Assembly: GCA_035764725.1 (NCBI GenBank)
Contig: DASTYT010000019.1
Span: forward strand, 1 to 64,000
Length of the DNA stretch: 64,000 bases
DNA from: Candidatus Methylomirabilota bacterium
Lineage (GTDB): Bacteria > Methylomirabilota > Methylomirabilia > Rokubacteriales > CSP1-6
Direction of reading: 5' to 3'
The notes below the pieces were generated by a model. The model made no database searches. It worked only from the letters and a program-made list of their open reading frames with translations, and was not told the origin of the DNA. Shown in pieces: positions 6,328 to 47,916 of this stretch (its first letter is position 1; each line of letters opens with the position of its first letter). The translations under genes were made by a program, and so were the position numbers.

Positions 6328-7569
6328 TCATCGCTTCGTCGCGGGCAGCCGGTCGTCGTAGCCGACCAGCTCGACATAGCCAGTGCCGAGCACAGTCCGT
6401 GTGCCCTCGAGCCCGTGCGCCTGCACCGCGCCCTCCCAGTATCGTGCCCCCACGTCCAGCTCCTGATCGGCGAGTCGCGGCTCGATCTCCAGCCTGAGCC
6501 CGCCGCGGAGATCGGTGAGTCGCCAGCCCGAAGGATAGCCGATCCCGGTGCGCTGGCTCCGCCACGTGCCGCGCGGCTCCACCCGCACATCGCCCGCGGC
6601 GAGCGGGCGCGTGCCCCCCCGGGCATCCACGAGCACGCCGGCGCTCCACGGGGCCGCGCGGCCGTCCTTTCGGCGGAGCTGATAGAACATGAGATCGCGC
6701 CCGTCGTCGAGGTTCAGGGCGAACCAGTCCCAGCCCGCGAGGTCGGAGCCGAGCGCGCTCGTGCTCCACTCGCGGTCCATCCACGCGAGGCCCTCGACGT
6801 CGAGGCGCTCGCCGCGCACCCGGAGGACGCCGCGGACGGGCATGCGGGTGAGCGAGTAGTAGTAGGACGCGTTGCCGGGCTCGGGGCCCTTGCGGGAGAG
6901 CCCCTGGTCACCCTGGAGCACCGGCGGCTTGGTGCTGTCGAGCGAGACCTCGAGGCTCACGTCCTCCTCGCCCGCGCGCAGGCGGATGGGCAGGGGCCCG
7001 GGCCCCTCCGCGCGCACCTCCCAGTCGCCCACCCAGACCCGGAGGGGCTCCGTGGTCGCGCCCGCGAGGTCCAGGGCGCCGCGGCTGGTGCGCGCCCACG
7101 CTCGGAAGCGCTCGCTGCGCGTGTCGGTGAGGGCGAAGTGCGCCATGTAGACCTGGTTGGTCGCCCACGCCGACTCGCGCGGCGGCGCCTTGGGCGCCAG
7201 CGCGGTGCGAAAGAACGTGAGCTGAAAGCCGAAATGCCGCCCCGACGCGGTGGCGAGGTTGCCCGTCCAGTACCACCACTCCGTGCGGAACTCGGGATGC
7301 GGCCCGTGGTCGTGCGGGAACACGAAGGCGCGCGGCTCCTCCGCGCGCGCGAAGCCCTCGGCGGGCGGCGCGGACAGCGCGGACGCGACGGACAGCCGCG
7401 CGCGCACCGGGCCCGCCGGATTCCACCGCGGCCCCTCCGTGACCATCAGCAGCGCGACCACGCCGATCACGAGGAAGAGGACCAGCACCGCGATGCGCGC
7501 GGCCGCCCAGCGCATCCATCTCGAGGCGGCCGGCGAGAACGCGTCACGCTCGTCGAATGGGTCACTCAT
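6328..7569 (-). CDS. AttH/CrtC-type lipocalin-like membrane-anchored protein
   Basis: 413 residues. A transmembrane segment at about 25-45 is followed by a periplasmic two-lobed lipocalin-like domain. Hallmarks are 'FPHDHGPHPEFRTEWWYWTGNL' around residues 88-110 and 'WMDREWSTSALGSDLAGWDW' in the middle. The fold is shared with carotenoid 1,2-hydratase CrtC and with AttH, which accompanies FtsX-type ABC transporters. The start overlaps the permease stop by 8 bases. It is likely the periplasmic partner of that transporter; hydratase activity is possible but not indicated by context. Confidence 0.85.
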   Translation of the reverse strand: MSDPFDERDAFSPAASRWMRWAAARIAVLVLFLVIGVVALLMVTEGPRWNPAGPVRARLSVASALSAPPAEGFARAEEPRAFVFPHDHGPHPEFRTEWWYWTGNLATASGRHFGFQLTFFRTALAPKAPPRESAWATNQVYMAHFALTDTRSERFRAWARTSRGALDLAGATTEPLRVWVGDWEVRAEGPGPLPIRLRAGEEDVSLEVSLDSTKPPVLQGDQGLSRKGPEPGNASYYYSLTRMPVRGVLRVRGERLDVEGLAWMDREWSTSALGSDLAGWDWFALNLDDGRDLMFYQLRRKDGRAAPWSAGVLVDARGGTRPLAAGDVRVEPRGTWRSQRTGIGYPSGWRLTDLRGGLRLEIEPRLADQELDVGARYWEGAVQAHGLEGTRTVLGTGYVELVGYDDRLPATKR

Positions 7570-10114
7570 CGTGCAGGGCCTCCGCGGGCGCCGCGCGCGC
7601 CATGCGGGCCGCCGGGTACGCGCCGGCGAGCGCCGCCGCCACCACCGCGAGGAGCAGGCCCTGGAGCAGGATGTCCGGGCGCACGTCGATGGGCATGGTC
7701 CACCCGAACGAGCGCCGGTTGATCACGAAGACGAGCACGCCGGCCAGCAGCACCCCCACCGGCATGGCGAGGAGCCCCGCGACCAGCCCGATGAGGCCGG
7801 TCTGCGCGGTGACGACGCCCCATACCTGGCCGGGGGTGAGGCCGAGCGCGCGCGCGAGCCCCATCTCGCGCACGCGCTCGAGCTCGAGGGCCATGAGCGC
7901 CGAGAGCACGCCCACGAATGCGACCAGCACGATCAAGAGGCGCAGGACCCGGGTGACCGCGAAGGTGCGGTCGAAGATCACCAGCGAGGCCTCGCGGAGC
8001 GCGCGGTTGGAGCGGATCAGCACCTCGGCGCCGGCGGGCCCCTCGGCGGCGCGTGCGCGCAGCGCCGCGATGAGCGTCGGGACATCCGTGCCGGGCGCGG
8101 CGTAGAGCGCCACCGACGACACCCCGCGGTCCGTCCAGTGGCGCTCGTAAGTGGCGCGGCTCATCATGACCACGCCGGCGCTCGACCCGTAGTCGTAGAA
8201 GATGCCGGCGATGCGGAACCGCTGCTCGCCGTGGTCGGTGCGCAGCCGCACCGCGTCCTCCACCCCCACGCGATGCCGGTAGGCGAATGGCTCCGACACG
8301 ATCACCCAGCCGCGCTCGAGGGCGGACCATACTGCCTCGGGCCGGCCTCGCTTGAAGGTGAAGCCGGGCGGCTGTCCCGCCGCCACCCCGATGGCGACGA
8401 CGTGCACCGGGCCGCGCGGGCTCGCCACCGTGACCCCCCGGGCGGTGCCGGCGGCGGCCACACCCGGCGTCGTCGCCAGGCGCTCGATCAGGGCGGGATC
8501 CAGCGTCGAGTCGGGCCGGCTGCCGATGAGGCTCGGCGGCGAGACGTAGACGTCGGCGCGCAGCGTTCCCTCGAGCCAGCGGACCACCGCCTCGCGGAAG
8601 CTCGCGATCATGATGCCGACGCCGACGGTGGCGGAGACCGCGATCATGAGGGCGGCGATCGCCACGCCGGTGCGCGACAGCGCGGCGGTGATCCCGCGCG
8701 CGGCCATGCGGCCGAGCAGCCCACCCGCGTGGGCGATCGGCACGTCGAGGGCCAGCAGGATCACCGTCACCGCCAGCGGCGTCACCAGCGCCGTCCCCAT
8801 GAGCAGGGCGAAGAGTCCCGCGAAGCCCCATATCGGCCCGCTCGGCACCAGCAGGAGGAGGAGGCCGAGCGCGCCGAGGGCTACGCCGCCCAGCGCGGCA
8901 CGCGGGGCGGCCCGGCGGCTCGCCGCCTCCAGCCGGGAGCGCAGCAGCGCCTCGCGCGGCCGGATCCCCGTGGCCTCGCGGGCGGGCGCGAGCGCGGCGA
9001 TCAGCGTGGTGCCGAGCCCGAGCGCCACGCCCTCCAGCAGCGCCACGGGCGTGAGATGCACGTCGCGAACGGACAGCGCGAAGTAGAGATCGTTGATGGT
9101 CCGGGTGACGAGATGGAGCAGGCCCTGGGCGAGGCCGAGCCCGAGGCCGATGCCGAGGAGCGTTCCCACCGCCCCGATCATGAGCGCTTCGAGGGCGACC
9201 AGGGCGAAGACCTCCTCGCGCGTCACGCCGAGCGCGCGCAAGGTGCCCAGCAGCGTCCGGCGCTGCACCACCGAGAAGGTCATCGTGTTGTAGATGAGGA
9301 ACATCCCAACCACGAGGGCGAGCAGGGAGAGGGCGCGGAGATTCAGGGTGAAGGCCGCCGTCATCGACGCGGTCGCCCCGGCCTGCGCACCCGCGGGGAC
9401 CAGCTCGACCCCCGGCGGCAGCGCCTTGCGAACGCGCTCGAGCAGCGCGCGATCGACGGGGCGGTAGCCGATCATGAGGTCGATACGCGACAGGCGGCCG
9501 CGGAGGCCCGCGACTTCCTGGGCGGTGGCGATGTCGGTGACGAGCACGCTCTCGAGCGCCTGCGTCGAGAGCGCATCGGCGGGCTCGAACGTGCCCACGA
9601 GGACGAGCGGGCGCCGCACACCCAGCACGCGCACGACCAGCGTGGCGCCGGGGGAAAGCCCCAGCTCTCGGGCGGCCGGGCCCGACATGAGCATGGCCCC
9701 GGGACGGGTCAGCAGCGCGGACACCGTACCGAGCGGATCGTCTCCCGCGAGATGCGGGCGGAAGGGCGTCTCCGCGAAGGGATCCACGCCCATCAGCTGC
9801 ATCACCCGTCCGGGATGGTCGGGGAGCGCCACGTCCGCCGCCACCACCGGCGCCGCGCGCGGCACGGCGAGGTCGAGGCGAATCGTGCGATAGATCTCCT
9901 CGGGCAGCCCGCCGGGCCCGCCCACGATCTGATGGGTCGCGCGCCCGGTCACCGCCTCGGTGGCCAGCTCGAACGCGCGCCGCGCGCTCTCGGTGGCAAG
10001 CCCGACGGCGAGCGCCACCGCGACGCCGAGCGCGATGCCGACCACGGACAGCCCGATCTGCCAGGGGTGGCGCACCAGGTGGCGCCGGCTCGCCCGCCAG
10101 AGCAGCGGGCTCAT
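7562..10114 (-). CDS. FtsX-family ABC transporter permease, two FtsX domains
   Basis: 850 residues. One transmembrane helix lies near residue 20, followed by a periplasmic MacB-PCD-like region. A first three-helix FtsX domain is at about 255-390, then two extra helices (about 420-490), a second periplasmic region, and a second FtsX block at about 730-845. It moves lipidic or peptide substrates to the envelope side in related systems (AttF/LolC-like). The ATG at 10114 overlaps the ATPase stop (ATGA), which decides the start. Together with the ATPase and lipocalin gene it makes an AttEFGH-like system. Confidence 0.9.
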   Translation of the reverse strand: MSPLLWRASRRHLVRHPWQIGLSVVGIALGVAVALAVGLATESARRAFELATEAVTGRATHQIVGGPGGLPEEIYRTIRLDLAVPRAAPVVAADVALPDHPGRVMQLMGVDPFAETPFRPHLAGDDPLGTVSALLTRPGAMLMSGPAARELGLSPGATLVVRVLGVRRPLVLVGTFEPADALSTQALESVLVTDIATAQEVAGLRGRLSRIDLMIGYRPVDRALLERVRKALPPGVELVPAGAQAGATASMTAAFTLNLRALSLLALVVGMFLIYNTMTFSVVQRRTLLGTLRALGVTREEVFALVALEALMIGAVGTLLGIGLGLGLAQGLLHLVTRTINDLYFALSVRDVHLTPVALLEGVALGLGTTLIAALAPAREATGIRPREALLRSRLEAASRRAAPRAALGGVALGALGLLLLLVPSGPIWGFAGLFALLMGTALVTPLAVTVILLALDVPIAHAGGLLGRMAARGITAALSRTGVAIAALMIAVSATVGVGIMIASFREAVVRWLEGTLRADVYVSPPSLIGSRPDSTLDPALIERLATTPGVAAAGTARGVTVASPRGPVHVVAIGVAAGQPPGFTFKRGRPEAVWSALERGWVIVSEPFAYRHRVGVEDAVRLRTDHGEQRFRIAGIFYDYGSSAGVVMMSRATYERHWTDRGVSSVALYAAPGTDVPTLIAALRARAAEGPAGAEVLIRSNRALREASLVIFDRTFAVTRVLRLLIVLVAFVGVLSALMALELERVREMGLARALGLTPGQVWGVVTAQTGLIGLVAGLLAMPVGVLLAGVLVFVINRRSFGWTMPIDVRPDILLQGLLLAVVAAALAGAYPAARMARAAPAEALHDE

Positions 10115-44267: not shown

Positions 44268-44366
44268 GCGGCGTCTCCTTTTGATGTTTTCTCTGACACT
44301 ACCAAAACGGCTTTTAATGGTTAGCGGCCCAAGGATGCCCCGCTCGTGGTAAGTAGTCAAGCGCCC

Positions 44367-45002
44367 ATGCCAGCCAGGACGGCGGCCGCCGACCCCGTGG
44401 TCTTCCACTTCGCCAGCGGCTGCCTCTGCCTCGATTTCGCCAACACGAAGAGCTGGCGGCCGAGCGCGGCGCCCCACGAGCGCCTGCACCACTTCGACGA
44501 CCTGATCCGCTGGGGGGAAAAGGCTCACCTCGTCGGCCCCGCCCAGGCCGCCCGCCTCCGGGCCAGCGGGCGCCGGGGCGGCGCGGGGGCCGCCCTGCTC
44601 CGCGAGGCCCGGAGCCTCCGCGAGACCCTCTACCGCACGTTCTCGGCGGTGGCGGACGGCGCCCATGCCGACGGCGCCGACGCGGCCCGCCTCTATGCGG
44701 GCTGCGCCGGCCTCCTGCGGGGGACCCGGGTGCGGGCGCGCGGAGGCGCCCTGACCGCCGATGTGCCAGCCGCACGGCGGCCCTCGGCGAGCGTCGAGCG
44801 ACTGATGTTCTGGCCGGTGATCTGGTCGGCGATGCGGCTCTTCGCCGCACCCGAGCTGGCCCACGTGCGGAAGTGCGCCGCGCCCGACTGCGGCTGGCTC
44901 TTCGTCGACGCCACCCGGAACCGCAGCCGCCGCTGGTGCGCGATGCAGGTGTGCGGCAATCGTGACAAGGTCCGGCGCTACCGCCGCCGGACGGGACGCT
45001 GA
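44367..45002 (+). CDS. CGNR zinc-finger / ABATE-domain protein
   Basis: 211 residues. The N-terminal ABATE-like domain has 'FHFASGCLCLDFANTK', and the C-terminal CGNR zinc finger is 'KCAAPDCGWLFVDATRNRSRRWC' then 'CGNRDKVRRYRRR'. Such proteins are thought to be DNA- or RNA-binding stress-related regulators. A GTG at 44346 in frame is an alternative start. It lies 15 bases upstream of the DUF411 gene, so the two are probably co-transcribed. Confidence 0.88.
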   Translation: MPARTAAADPVVFHFASGCLCLDFANTKSWRPSAAPHERLHHFDDLIRWGEKAHLVGPAQAARLRASGRRGGAGAALLREARSLRETLYRTFSAVADGAHADGADAARLYAGCAGLLRGTRVRARGGALTADVPAARRPSASVERLMFWPVIWSAMRLFAAPELAHVRKCAAPDCGWLFVDATRNRSRRWCAMQVCGNRDKVRRYRRRTGR

Positions 45003-45017
45003 TCAAGGGAGACCGGC

Positions 45018-45473
45018 ATGACATCACGACGCAAGCTCCTCCTCGGCCTGCTCTTCGCCGGCGCCGCCCTCGCGGGCGCCCCAGCGCGCGCCGCCGCCAA
45101 GACGACGATCACCGTCCATCGCTCGCCCACCTGAGGCTGCTGCACCGCGTGGGTGGTCCACCTGCGCGAGCACGGCTTTGCGGTGACCGAGCGGCCCGAG
45201 GACGACCTCGCCCCGGTGAAGCGCCGTCTCGGGGTGCCGACGGCGCTCGAGTCCTGTCACACCGCGCTCGTCGAGGGCTACGTGATCGAGGGCCACGTGG
45301 CCGCCGACCTGATCGACCGCCTCCTGCGCGAGCGGCCGAAGATCGCCGGCCTCGCCGTGCCCGGCATGCCGGTGGGCTCGCCCGGCATGGAAACGCCCGG
45401 CGTCAAACCCGAGCGGTATCAGGTCTTCGCGTTCGACCGCGGGGGACGCACGACCGTCTTCGCCACGCGCTGA
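45018..45473 (+). CDS. DUF411 (CopG-like) exported protein with in-frame TGA (candidate selenoprotein)
   Basis: From ATG 45018 (GGGAGA upstream) the frame has 151 codons if TGA at 45132-45134 encodes residue 39. A leader 'TSRRKLLLGLLFAGAALAG' with a twin-arginine precedes 'TITVHRSPT', TGA, 'GCCTAWVVHLREHGF'. DUF411 proteins have Ser-Pro-Thr-Cys-Gly-Cys-Cys here, so the TGA replaces the first Cys of the CxCC copper-binding motif. The rest is complete: 'LESCHTALVEGYVIEGHV', 'GLAVPGMPVGSPGM'. Without readthrough only a 38-residue leader would be made. CopG-type members act in periplasmic copper handling. It ends 45 bases from the convergent cydB stop. Confidence 0.78.
45146..45166 (+). promoter_or_regulatory. 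Candidate bacterial SECIS hairpin after DUF411 TGA
   Basis: CGC-GTGG (45146-45152) pairs with CCAC (45158-45161) and GCG (45164-45166), with a CT bulge on the 3' side. The loop is GTGGT (45153-45157). There are 18 bases between the TGA and the loop, and the loop begins with G. The geometry nearly equals that after the CMD TGA. Folding is by eye and not energetically tested. Confidence 0.45.
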
Positions 45474-45518: not shown

Positions 45519-46565
45519 CTAGTACCCTTCGCCCTCCGCGGCGGCAACCGCCTTGCCGCGATGCAGCCAGATCACGACACCCAGATAGATCAACGCGAGC
45601 GGCGCTCCGACGAGGAACCAGCGCAGCGCGATCCTGAGCCCCGCCTCGTCGCCGCCGCCCGTGTAGGCGGTGAGGGACAGCGCGTCGCCTCCGGTCGCGC
45701 GCAGCATCACCGGGAAGTACGAGGCGGCGCTGGCCCCGATGATGCCGAGCAGGAACGCGCACGAGCCGAGGAAGGCTCCGAAGTCGCCGCCCCGCGCGAG
45801 GCGGACGAAGACGGCCACGATGCCGGCAATCGCGAAGAGCGCGGCGGCGATGGCGAGCCAGCGGCGGCCCATGCCCGGAAACAGCGAGGAATTCACCACG
45901 TGACTCGCCGCGGTCACCACGGGCCAGAGCACCGCCACCGCGATCCAGAGTCGCCGCGCCGCCCGGCGGCTGCGGTCGTGCACCGGCCCGTCGGTCTTCC
46001 AGGCGAGGAACGTCGCGCCATGGGCCCCGAGGGCCAGCAGAGCGAACACCCCGGTCAGGACCGTGTACCAGTCGAGGATCCCCACGGGGTCGCGCGCGCT
46101 CCAGTCGGTGAAGAGCGGCAGCGCGAACCACCCGTCGCGATCCAGGGAGACACCGCGCATGAGATTGCCGAACGCGGCGCCGAAGAACACCGCGAGCAGG
46201 GTGCTGGCCGCCGCGAAGACGAAGTCCCAGGCGGCGCGCCACAGGGGCTCGACCACGTGACTCCGGAATTCGATGGCGATGCCGCGCCCGAGCAGGCACC
46301 AGAGCAGGAGGAAGATCGCGAAGTAGAAGCCCGAGATGCCGGAGGCGAGCACCCGTGGGAACGCCACGAACAGCGCGCCGCCCGCCGCGAGCAGCCACAC
46401 CTCATTGCCGTCCCAGTACGGGCCGATGGCCGCCAGCACTTGACGCCGCTCGGGGTCGCTCCGCGCCACGAAGGGCGAGACGATGCCCGCCCCCAGGTCG
46501 AAGCCGTCGAGCGCCACGTAGATCGCAAACATCAGCGCAGCGATGACGTACCAGGTCTCAAGCAT
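45519..46565 (-). CDS. cydB: Cytochrome bd ubiquinol oxidase subunit II
   Basis: 348 residues with eight or nine helices. It starts 'MLETWYVIAALMFAIYVALDGFDLGAGIV', a near-invariant CydB N-terminus (shown across the first helix), and has 'YWDGNEVWLLAAGGALF'. It supports quinone-site and heme b595/d assembly with CydA in the inner membrane. The ATG at 46565 overlaps the cydA stop by 8 bases, which rules out the upstream Met of the same frame. It is convergent with the DUF411 gene. Confidence 0.94.
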   Translation of the reverse strand: MLETWYVIAALMFAIYVALDGFDLGAGIVSPFVARSDPERRQVLAAIGPYWDGNEVWLLAAGGALFVAFPRVLASGISGFYFAIFLLLWCLLGRGIAIEFRSHVVEPLWRAAWDFVFAAASTLLAVFFGAAFGNLMRGVSLDRDGWFALPLFTDWSARDPVGILDWYTVLTGVFALLALGAHGATFLAWKTDGPVHDRSRRAARRLWIAVAVLWPVVTAASHVVNSSLFPGMGRRWLAIAAALFAIAGIVAVFVRLARGGDFGAFLGSCAFLLGIIGASAASYFPVMLRATGGDALSLTAYTGGGDEAGLRIALRWFLVGAPLALIYLGVVIWLHRGKAVAAAEGEGY

Positions 46566-47916
46566 GCACGGGCTCCACGTGGCCGCGCCCGGCCGGTGAC
46601 AGCGGCGCCGGGCCATGGGCGATCTCGCGCCCGATCAGGAACAGGAACAGGATGCCGAGGGCGAGATAGAGGCCGCAGAAGCCGATCAGGGTGAAGAGCA
46701 CGGTCCCCGCATGGACGGTGGGGCTCGCGCCCTGCGCGGTGCGGAAGACGCCGAAGATGAGCCAGGGCTGACGGCCGAGCTCGGCGGTCATCCACCCGAC
46801 GGTGTTGGCGATGTAGGGGAGCGGGAAGGCGAGCATGAGGATCCACAGCATGGGGCGGCTCCGCTCGAGGCGCCCCGCCCACCAGAGCAGGACGGCGACG
46901 AAGGCGATCGCGGTGAGAATGGTGCCCAGGCCCGCCATGATGTGGAACGAGTAGTAGAGCAGCTCGATGTTGTCGGGCCAGTCGTCACGCGGGAAGGCGT
47001 CCAGGCCCTGGACCGGGGCCTGGAAGGTGCCGAAGGCGAGGAACGAGAGCACCCAGGGAATCACGACGGGATTGTCCAGCCGGCGCGCGGACACGTTCGG
47101 CTGGCCGATGACGTTGAGCCCCGCGTGCGCGCCACTCTCGAAACGCCCCTCCATGGCGGCGAGCGCCACTGGCTGATGGCGCGCCACCAGCTTGGCCTGC
47201 CGGTCGCCGGTCACCGTCACGAGCACGCTGGCCACGAGCGCGGCCGTCACGCCGAGGCGAAGGAAGAGACCGGCGGTGGGCAGATGGCGTCGGGTCAGCG
47301 TGTAGTAGGCGCCGACGGCGGCCATCACGAACGCGCCGGTCACGACGGCGGCGACCATGTTGTGGGCGTACTGCACGATCGCCCACGGGCTCAGCACGAA
47401 CGCCCAGAAGTCCACGAGGCGCAGCGTCCCGTCGGCGGCCACCGCGTGGCCCACCGGGTACTGCATGAAGGCATTGGTCGCGATGATGAAGTAGCCCGAG
47501 AGCCAGCTCCCGAGAAAGAGCGCGACCGCGGCGAGGAAGTGGCCGATCTTCGAGAGCCGCCGCTCGCCCCAGACCAGGAGGAAGAGGAAGCTCGACTCGA
47601 GAAAGAACGCGAAGAGCCCCTCCATCGCTAGAGTCTGGCCGATCACGCTGCCCGCGTGGCGGCTGAACTTCGCCCAGTTCGTGCCGAACTGGAACTCCAT
47701 GGGGATGCCGGTGACGACGCCGACCGCGAAGTTGATCCCGAAGATGCGGATCCAGAAGCGCGCCGCGTCGTTCCAGCGCTCGCCGCCTTGGCGGAGGCCC
47801 AGCGCCTTCATGATCACGATGAGAAGGGCCAGCCCCATGGTGAGCTGCGGGAAGAGATAGTGGTAGACGATGGTGAACGCGAACTGCAGGCGATGAAAGA
47901 CGAGCGCGTCATCCAT
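46558..47916 (-). CDS. cydA: Cytochrome bd ubiquinol oxidase subunit I, short Q-loop (CIO-like)
   Basis: 452 residues, shorter than the 522 of E. coli CydA. His19 is in 'VYHYLFP', Glu in 'AMEGLFAFFLESSF', His in 'VQYAHNMVA' and the heme b558 Met in 'YSFHIMAGLG'. The quinol loop is short and has 'AAMEGRFESG', as in cyanide-insensitive oxidases. It oxidises quinol and reduces O2 without copper. GGGAGG lies upstream of the ATG at 47916. It is divergent from the GH63-like gene. Confidence 0.94.
   Translation of the reverse strand: MDDALVFHRLQFAFTIVYHYLFPQLTMGLALLIVIMKALGLRQGGERWNDAARFWIRIFGINFAVGVVTGIPMEFQFGTNWAKFSRHAGSVIGQTLAMEGLFAFFLESSFLFLLVWGERRLSKIGHFLAAVALFLGSWLSGYFIIATNAFMQYPVGHAVAADGTLRLVDFWAFVLSPWAIVQYAHNMVAAVVTGAFVMAAVGAYYTLTRRHLPTAGLFLRLGVTAALVASVLVTVTGDRQAKLVARHQPVALAAMEGRFESGAHAGLNVIGQPNVSARRLDNPVVIPWVLSFLAFGTFQAPVQGLDAFPRDDWPDNIELLYYSFHIMAGLGTILTAIAFVAVLLWWAGRLERSRPMLWILMLAFPLPYIANTVGWMTAELGRQPWLIFGVFRTAQGASPTVHAGTVLFTLIGFCGLYLALGILFLFLIGREIAHGPAPLSPAGRGHVEPVHA

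Follow-up and report, generated by a model that had tools for sequence, protein, structure and literature searches.

A probable selenocysteine codon (TGA) in the copper-binding motif of a DUF411/CopG-family gene from Candidatus Methylomirabilota

Does the in-frame TGA of a DUF411/CopG-family gene from a Candidatus Methylomirabilota genome end the protein, or does it place selenocysteine (Sec) in a copper-binding motif? The gene (45018–45473, plus strand; 151 codons before the stop) lies in a stretch of 64,000 nucleotides, referred to here as the window. Its frame runs from ATG 45018 to TGA 45471–45473 and is interrupted once, by TGA at codon 39 (45132–45134) in the context Ser-Pro-Thr-TGA-Gly-Cys-Cys, as a preliminary description of the locus had stated and as translation confirmed. 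With the TGA read through, the product scores 91.2 bits against Pfam DUF411 (PF04214, cut-off 27), and its predicted structure has the CopG fold, matching structures of Pseudomonas aeruginosa CopG (PDB 6WIS and 6WJE) with 48–50% identity and a root-mean-square deviation of 1.4–1.5 Å. In alignments with Cys-containing relatives the TGA falls opposite the first Cys of CxCC, the position held by Cys in CopG-type copper proteins; we therefore class the gene within DUF411 as a Sec variant and use 'CopG-type copper protein' only for what it would work like. Overall, the best explanation (probability about 0.8) is a Sec variant of CopG/DUF411 with a selenolate in the copper-binding motif.

Recurrence of the TGA at one codon

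A full-length relative was found in 11 of 96 Methylomirabilota genomes. Because all 11 contain exactly one TGA, at the aligned codon, the TGA in the window gene is more than chance. A PF04214 profile search over the same 96 genomes identified these 11 again, plus a single weak hit that fell below the cut-off, and a twelfth match in the phylum (locus L029; 31% identity, two TAG) was dropped as spurious. In Gemmatimonadota a match was present in 315 of 395 genomes, seven with one TGA among the 150 matches listed; in Acidobacteriota 42 of 396 genomes matched at E 1e-20 or better, with one TGA in 16 of the 43 listed matches. Taken together (11 matches kept from Methylomirabilota, at least 150 listed from Gemmatimonadota and 43 from Acidobacteriota), 34 of 204 listed matches have a stop, in each case a single TGA, with no TAA and no TAG. 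Homologues with further stop codons, named in the preliminary description as a sign of gene decay, were thus absent among these 34.

A wider contig search added relatives from other lineages. Among the best 80 of 557 relatives, 73 have Cys and seven TGA at the site; one of the two search patterns required Cys there, so that TGA forms are under-counted in this set. The seven comprise four phylum genomes already counted and loci from Gemmatimonadetes (L061), Chloroflexi (L068) and Vicinamibacterales (L107); an off-frame pattern match (TCG, in L088) was dropped. Distinct TGA genes therefore number 35 (11 + 7 + 1 + 16) in four phyla, Methylomirabilota, Gemmatimonadota, Chloroflexi and Acidobacteriota, and every TGA, including those outside Methylomirabilota, was verified at the aligned codon. 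These are the homologues, with TGA opposite the first Cys, that the preliminary description had proposed to look for.

The remainder of the motif is retained. Cys41 and Cys42 (45138–45143), the two remaining Cys of CxCC, are invariant in the alignment and give UxxC spacing with Sec39 (residues 39–42), and Met117-x6-Met124 (45366–45389) corresponds to the paired methionines at the copper site of CopG, a role taken from PMC7558416 and PMC8456105. By pattern, x-x-Cys-Cys with Met-x6-Met occurs in 35/35 TGA genes and 112/112 Cys genes, a count that leaves out seven further Cys loci and in which some Cys rows are one gene fetched twice. The assertion of the preliminary description that DUF411 proteins have Cys-Gly-Cys-Cys here stands for most Cys relatives; the second residue differs in 6 of 80 loci. 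One Acidobacteriota TGA gene (L214, genome G858) has the variant motif Pro-Gly-U-Pro-Cys-Cys in place of the usual Pro-Thr-U-Gly-Cys-Cys.

Pairwise ratios of non-synonymous to synonymous differences (pN/pS) among 32 TGA genes are 0.53 for codons −10 to −1, 0.29 from the TGA to +6 and 0.67 from +7 to +35, so that the region flanking the TGA evolves like coding sequence. A tree was built from 113 proteins, 20 of them TGA forms (15 other Acidobacteriota TGA genes were left out), and on it the Sec/Cys label requires nine changes, five of these forced by well-supported branches; single forks are weak, since the columns are few and the bootstrap has not settled. In one Gemmatimonadota genome (G096) a TGA-form DUF411 gene coexists with an open-frame paralogue (the two loci being C59:41860–42282 and C65:36260–36673).

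The downstream hairpin and the host machinery

A predicted hairpin of the selenocysteine insertion sequence (SECIS) type follows the TGA on the plus strand (45146–45168), with a 10-bp stem (45146–45155 paired to 45159–45168) and the loop GUC (45156–45158), within a full predicted fold of 45133–45179. This 49-nt fold has a stability of −27.5 kcal/mol (z −3.4), and 0 of 200 shuffles were equally stable. According to PMC13188914 (section 5), a bacterial SECIS (bSECIS) has a loop of 3–9 nt with G within the first two loop positions, 16–37 nt from the TGA; the hairpin of the window gene, with its 3-nt apical loop 21 nt after the TGA, satisfies this model, as scored with our own script in place of bSECISearch.

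The same model is satisfied by 18/20 TGA genes and 53/93 Cys genes, and a complete 6-bp core is present in 18/20 TGA against 13/93 Cys genes overall and in 7/7 against 5/41 within Gemmatimonadota. Compared with synonymous recodings, the hairpins of TGA genes are more stable (mean z −1.78, n = 20; 11/20 singly at p < 0.05), while those of Cys genes are not (mean z −0.00, n = 93). Hairpins in Acidobacteriota are mostly in another register. A wider stretch, picked after the Acidobacteriota folds had been inspected, gave z −1.06 for the 20 TGA genes, and in Acidobacteriota −1.56 for 13 TGA genes (one common to the first set) against 0.10 for 19 Cys genes; three Acidobacteriota TGA genes outside the motif pattern (L207, L210 and L214) were read individually and are not part of the hairpin tests. 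Codon +8, which lies under the apical loop, encodes Gly or Val in 17/20 TGA genes and Glu or Asp in 63/93 Cys genes of the first set, a contrast that points to an influence of the hairpin on the protein sequence here; in Acidobacteriota the contrast is weak.

The host genome (100% complete, 3.13% contamination) encodes the genes that such decoding would call for, all four of which the preliminary description had listed as a check. A tRNA-Sec with anticodon TCA (69.1 bits) lies at C99:52282–52375 and is followed consecutively by selA (C99:53834, 572 bits) and selB (C99:55254, 367 bits), with selD on contig C7 (272 bits). Across the phylum, tRNA-Sec was detected in 80/96 genomes and in 9/11 of those with a TGA form. 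The original proposal that the TGA encodes Sec in CxCC is thus supported from three sides, by aligned TGA homologues, host Sec genes and a bSECIS-type hairpin, and Sec insertion at codon 39 is, as judged from sequence, close to certain.

The putative copper site and competing explanations

In the mechanism we propose, codon 39 would be decoded as Sec by the SelA-SelB-SelD-tRNA(Sec) system of the same genome, with the hairpin just downstream as the likely SECIS. The selenolate would stand in for the first thiolate of the copper-binding CxCC of CopG, and the U-x-C-C and Met-x6-Met site would hold copper as CopG does, Sec39 being also the first residue of a thioredoxin-type UxxC pair (39–42). Compared with Cys, Sec generally exchanges faster, has a lower pKa and is more easily restored after over-oxidation. 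Selenium could make for a faster or more oxidation-resistant centre for Cu(I)/Cu(II) and thiol redox chemistry. A place for selenium in a metal or redox site is very probable. A selenolate as copper ligand is suggested by homology to CopG, whose thioredoxin-like domain carries a four-copper cluster coordinated by CxCC and two methionines. The roles proposed for CopG are copper oxidation, copper transfer and resistance to copper under anaerobic conditions (PMC7558416), and it has also been termed a Cu-thiol oxidoreductase (PMC8456105). The window gene retains this site with Sec39 as the one departure, and is most simply read as encoding it with a single selenolate. That the job of the Sec form is copper redox or detoxification is, by this analogy, an even bet, and the odds are similarly balanced for the broader proposal that CopG proteins of four phyla build a multinuclear copper site with a bridging Sec, a natural mixed selenolate-thiolate cluster, with several Cys/Sec switches at the site in evolution.

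Could the stop be real? Gene callers do give a short form, and 28 of 120 listed homologues (metagenomic and other) are 105–106 aa long, starting 7 to 9 codons past the site, a point in favour of a pseudogene, a sequencing error or a gene that makes only a 106-residue product from GTG 45153. These accounts leave unexplained why no stop other than TGA, always at a single codon, is seen across 35 genes of four phyla, and why the first strand and PT-x-GCC, both ahead of the internal start, are conserved (pN/pS 0.53 and 0.29, as above); the short form would, moreover, be without the entire CxCC motif. We rejected decay, error and an internal GTG start on the TGA-only stops and the conserved upstream coding, and give them a negligible chance. 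The 105–106 aa homologues are, from their sequences, likely to be TGA genes shortened by gene callers, and metagenomes probably contain more Sec forms than their annotation reveals; annotation today appears to trim such genes to about 106 residues, with loss of the active site. Read-through by another tRNA, or as another residue such as Cys, would likewise leave the frame open with no selenium involved, but it is at odds with the tRNA-Sec with TCA anticodon and selA, selB and selD in the host, with the bSECIS-type hairpin after the TGA, and with the use of TGA as an ordinary stop elsewhere (45471–45473 and the end of the upstream gene); we regard it as very improbable. A different genetic code was rejected because TGA terminates both the window gene and its upstream neighbour.

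Several results weigh against our preferred explanation of a Sec-containing CopG variant. No tRNA-Sec was found in two of the 11 Methylomirabilota TGA genomes, G058 and G089; the latter has selA, and G058 (78% complete) is also without it. In the Vicinamibacterales genome G098, the sole genome examined for Sec machinery among 16 Acidobacteriota TGA genomes, there was no tRNA-Sec over the cut-off and only a partial selA (126 bits). The Gemmatimonadota comparison, which covers 39 of the 315 matching genomes (those with TGA and the best-scoring Cys ones), found tRNA-Sec in 7/7 TGA genomes and 25/32 Cys-form genomes; tRNA-Sec being so common in the latter, its association with TGA is not discriminating. 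As to the hairpin, two TGA genes are outliers against recoding (L107, z +1.19; L068, z −0.09). No good hairpin was found in the Chloroflexi gene L068, and that of L107 is bulged with a GG-starting loop, having been missed by a first scan because this demanded four unbroken pairs. Over the wider stretch a slight deviation is present in the first-set Cys genes as well (z −0.16, n = 93, p 0.05), and in Acidobacteriota the complete 6-bp core is no marker (1/13 TGA, 2/19 Cys genes) and the residue shift at codon +8 is weak. Stem covariation among 20 sequences was not significant (36 to 326 of 500 shuffles reached the observed values), and the case for the hairpin therefore rests on the contrast with Cys genes and on recoding. 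At the site itself, one protein from a Methylomirabilota metagenome-assembled genome (P0046) has Cys, so that the phylum is not purely Sec, and a metagenome protein (P0002, 78% identical) has Gly (GGCC), suggestive of a lost Sec or an error. On the copper side, copper genes are not conserved neighbours of the TGA genes examined, and CutO activity in Rhodobacter capsulatus did not require the Cys and Met motifs of the homologue CutG (PMC8456105).

Sec could be present in a protein with no copper function, either a plain thiol/selenol oxidoreductase in which Sec39, within a thioredoxin-type UxxC pair, would make the attack, or a protein that scavenges some other soft metal such as mercury. We consider this possible though rather unlikely.

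Gene surroundings and relation to known systems

Upstream of the site, codons 1–27 (45018–45098) encode a hydrophobic leader with twin Arg, read from the translation as a putative export signal, from which export to the periplasm is likely; the leader is the low-confidence portion of the predicted structure. Cys80-His81 (45255–45260) are conserved family residues in the alignment with relatives. The adjoining genes are a putative regulator with ABATE and CGNR zinc-finger domains on the same strand (44346–45002, plus) and a convergent gene for cytochrome bd oxidase subunit II (cydB; 45519–46616, minus), neither of which was seen beside the relatives whose neighbours were examined. When open reading frames around 20 of the 35 TGA genes were compared all against all, groups present in at least three loci were confined to one genus (L166, L168 and L169), the exceptions being an enoyl-CoA-hydratase-like group (four loci) and a short-chain-dehydrogenase-like group (three loci, the window included), names judged from the sequences without Pfam. 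Pfam applied to 30 picked neighbours returned no copper-named family, one MerB and one YHS.

Individual loci have neighbours of their own. In L170 (genome G073, contig C13) the TGA-form gene is immediately preceded by a MerB-like (alkylmercury lyase) gene (7510–8233, minus strand) that contains an in-frame TGA too, at residue 181. Reading through this codon extends the match to Pfam MerB from 1–71 to the whole profile (1–126 of 126, 101 bits). The gene likely encodes another selenoprotein; the table of PMC13188914 includes SaoL, which is MerB-like. Immediately upstream of another TGA-form gene lies L044:1283–1939, coding for a protein with a YHS domain and, at its N terminus, a weak cyclase-like match, and genes for an encapsulated-ferritin-like protein and an encapsulin (L164:8480–9696, genome G070) are near a third.

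According to the preliminary description, a selenolate in a copper or other soft-metal site is not known to have been described for this family. As a selenoprotein the family is new in all that we searched, with the reservation that selenium has already been predicted in other copper-related proteins. DUF411, PF04214 and CopG are absent from the table of 119 prokaryotic selenoprotein families (May 2026) in PMC13188914, NCBIfam release 20 gave no match over the cut-off, and no description of a selenocysteine DUF411/CopG was found in the titles and abstract openings searched, a set outside which lie part of the DUF411 literature, the CopG structure paper and Haft and Tolstoy 2025. Reference 66 of PMC13188914 concerns a Methylomirabilota metagenome-assembled genome with 63 predicted selenoproteins, among which the family could be contained. 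The Sec form would likely be an undescribed selenoprotein family joining selenium to copper handling. If so, prokaryotic selenoproteins gain one more family, and selenium would sit in a copper site that is known in its Cys version from a crystal structure, allowing direct comparison of Sec and Cys clusters; the repeated Cys/Sec exchange among relatives would allow the question 'why Sec?' to be put to the test within a single small protein.

CopG of Pseudomonas aeruginosa and CutG of R. capsulatus belong to the same family as the window gene, and the C40-x-C42-C43 and M120-x6-M127 motifs of CutG (PMC8456105) have the same spacing as its CxCC-type and Met-x6-Met site. The window gene differs from them in having TGA, predicted Sec, for the first Cys, and in that no multicopper oxidase, CopA or Cus gene was seen directly adjoining it or the relatives examined. 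With the thioredoxin-fold selenoproteins of UxxC type (Trx, Grx, DsbA-like and others; PMC13188914, Table 1) it shares a thioredoxin-like fold, a predicted Sec first in UxxC and a bSECIS-type hairpin after the TGA, whereas its family is different and its U-x-C-C motif is combined with a methionine pair that binds copper in CopG. Predicted selenium in a copper-linked protein also has parallels in the same table, in the CopZ-family (2Fe-2S) proteins (GxUC, CU) and the SO_0444 Cu/Zn efflux transporter (UxC), which are set apart from CopG/DUF411 by their names and domain identifiers.
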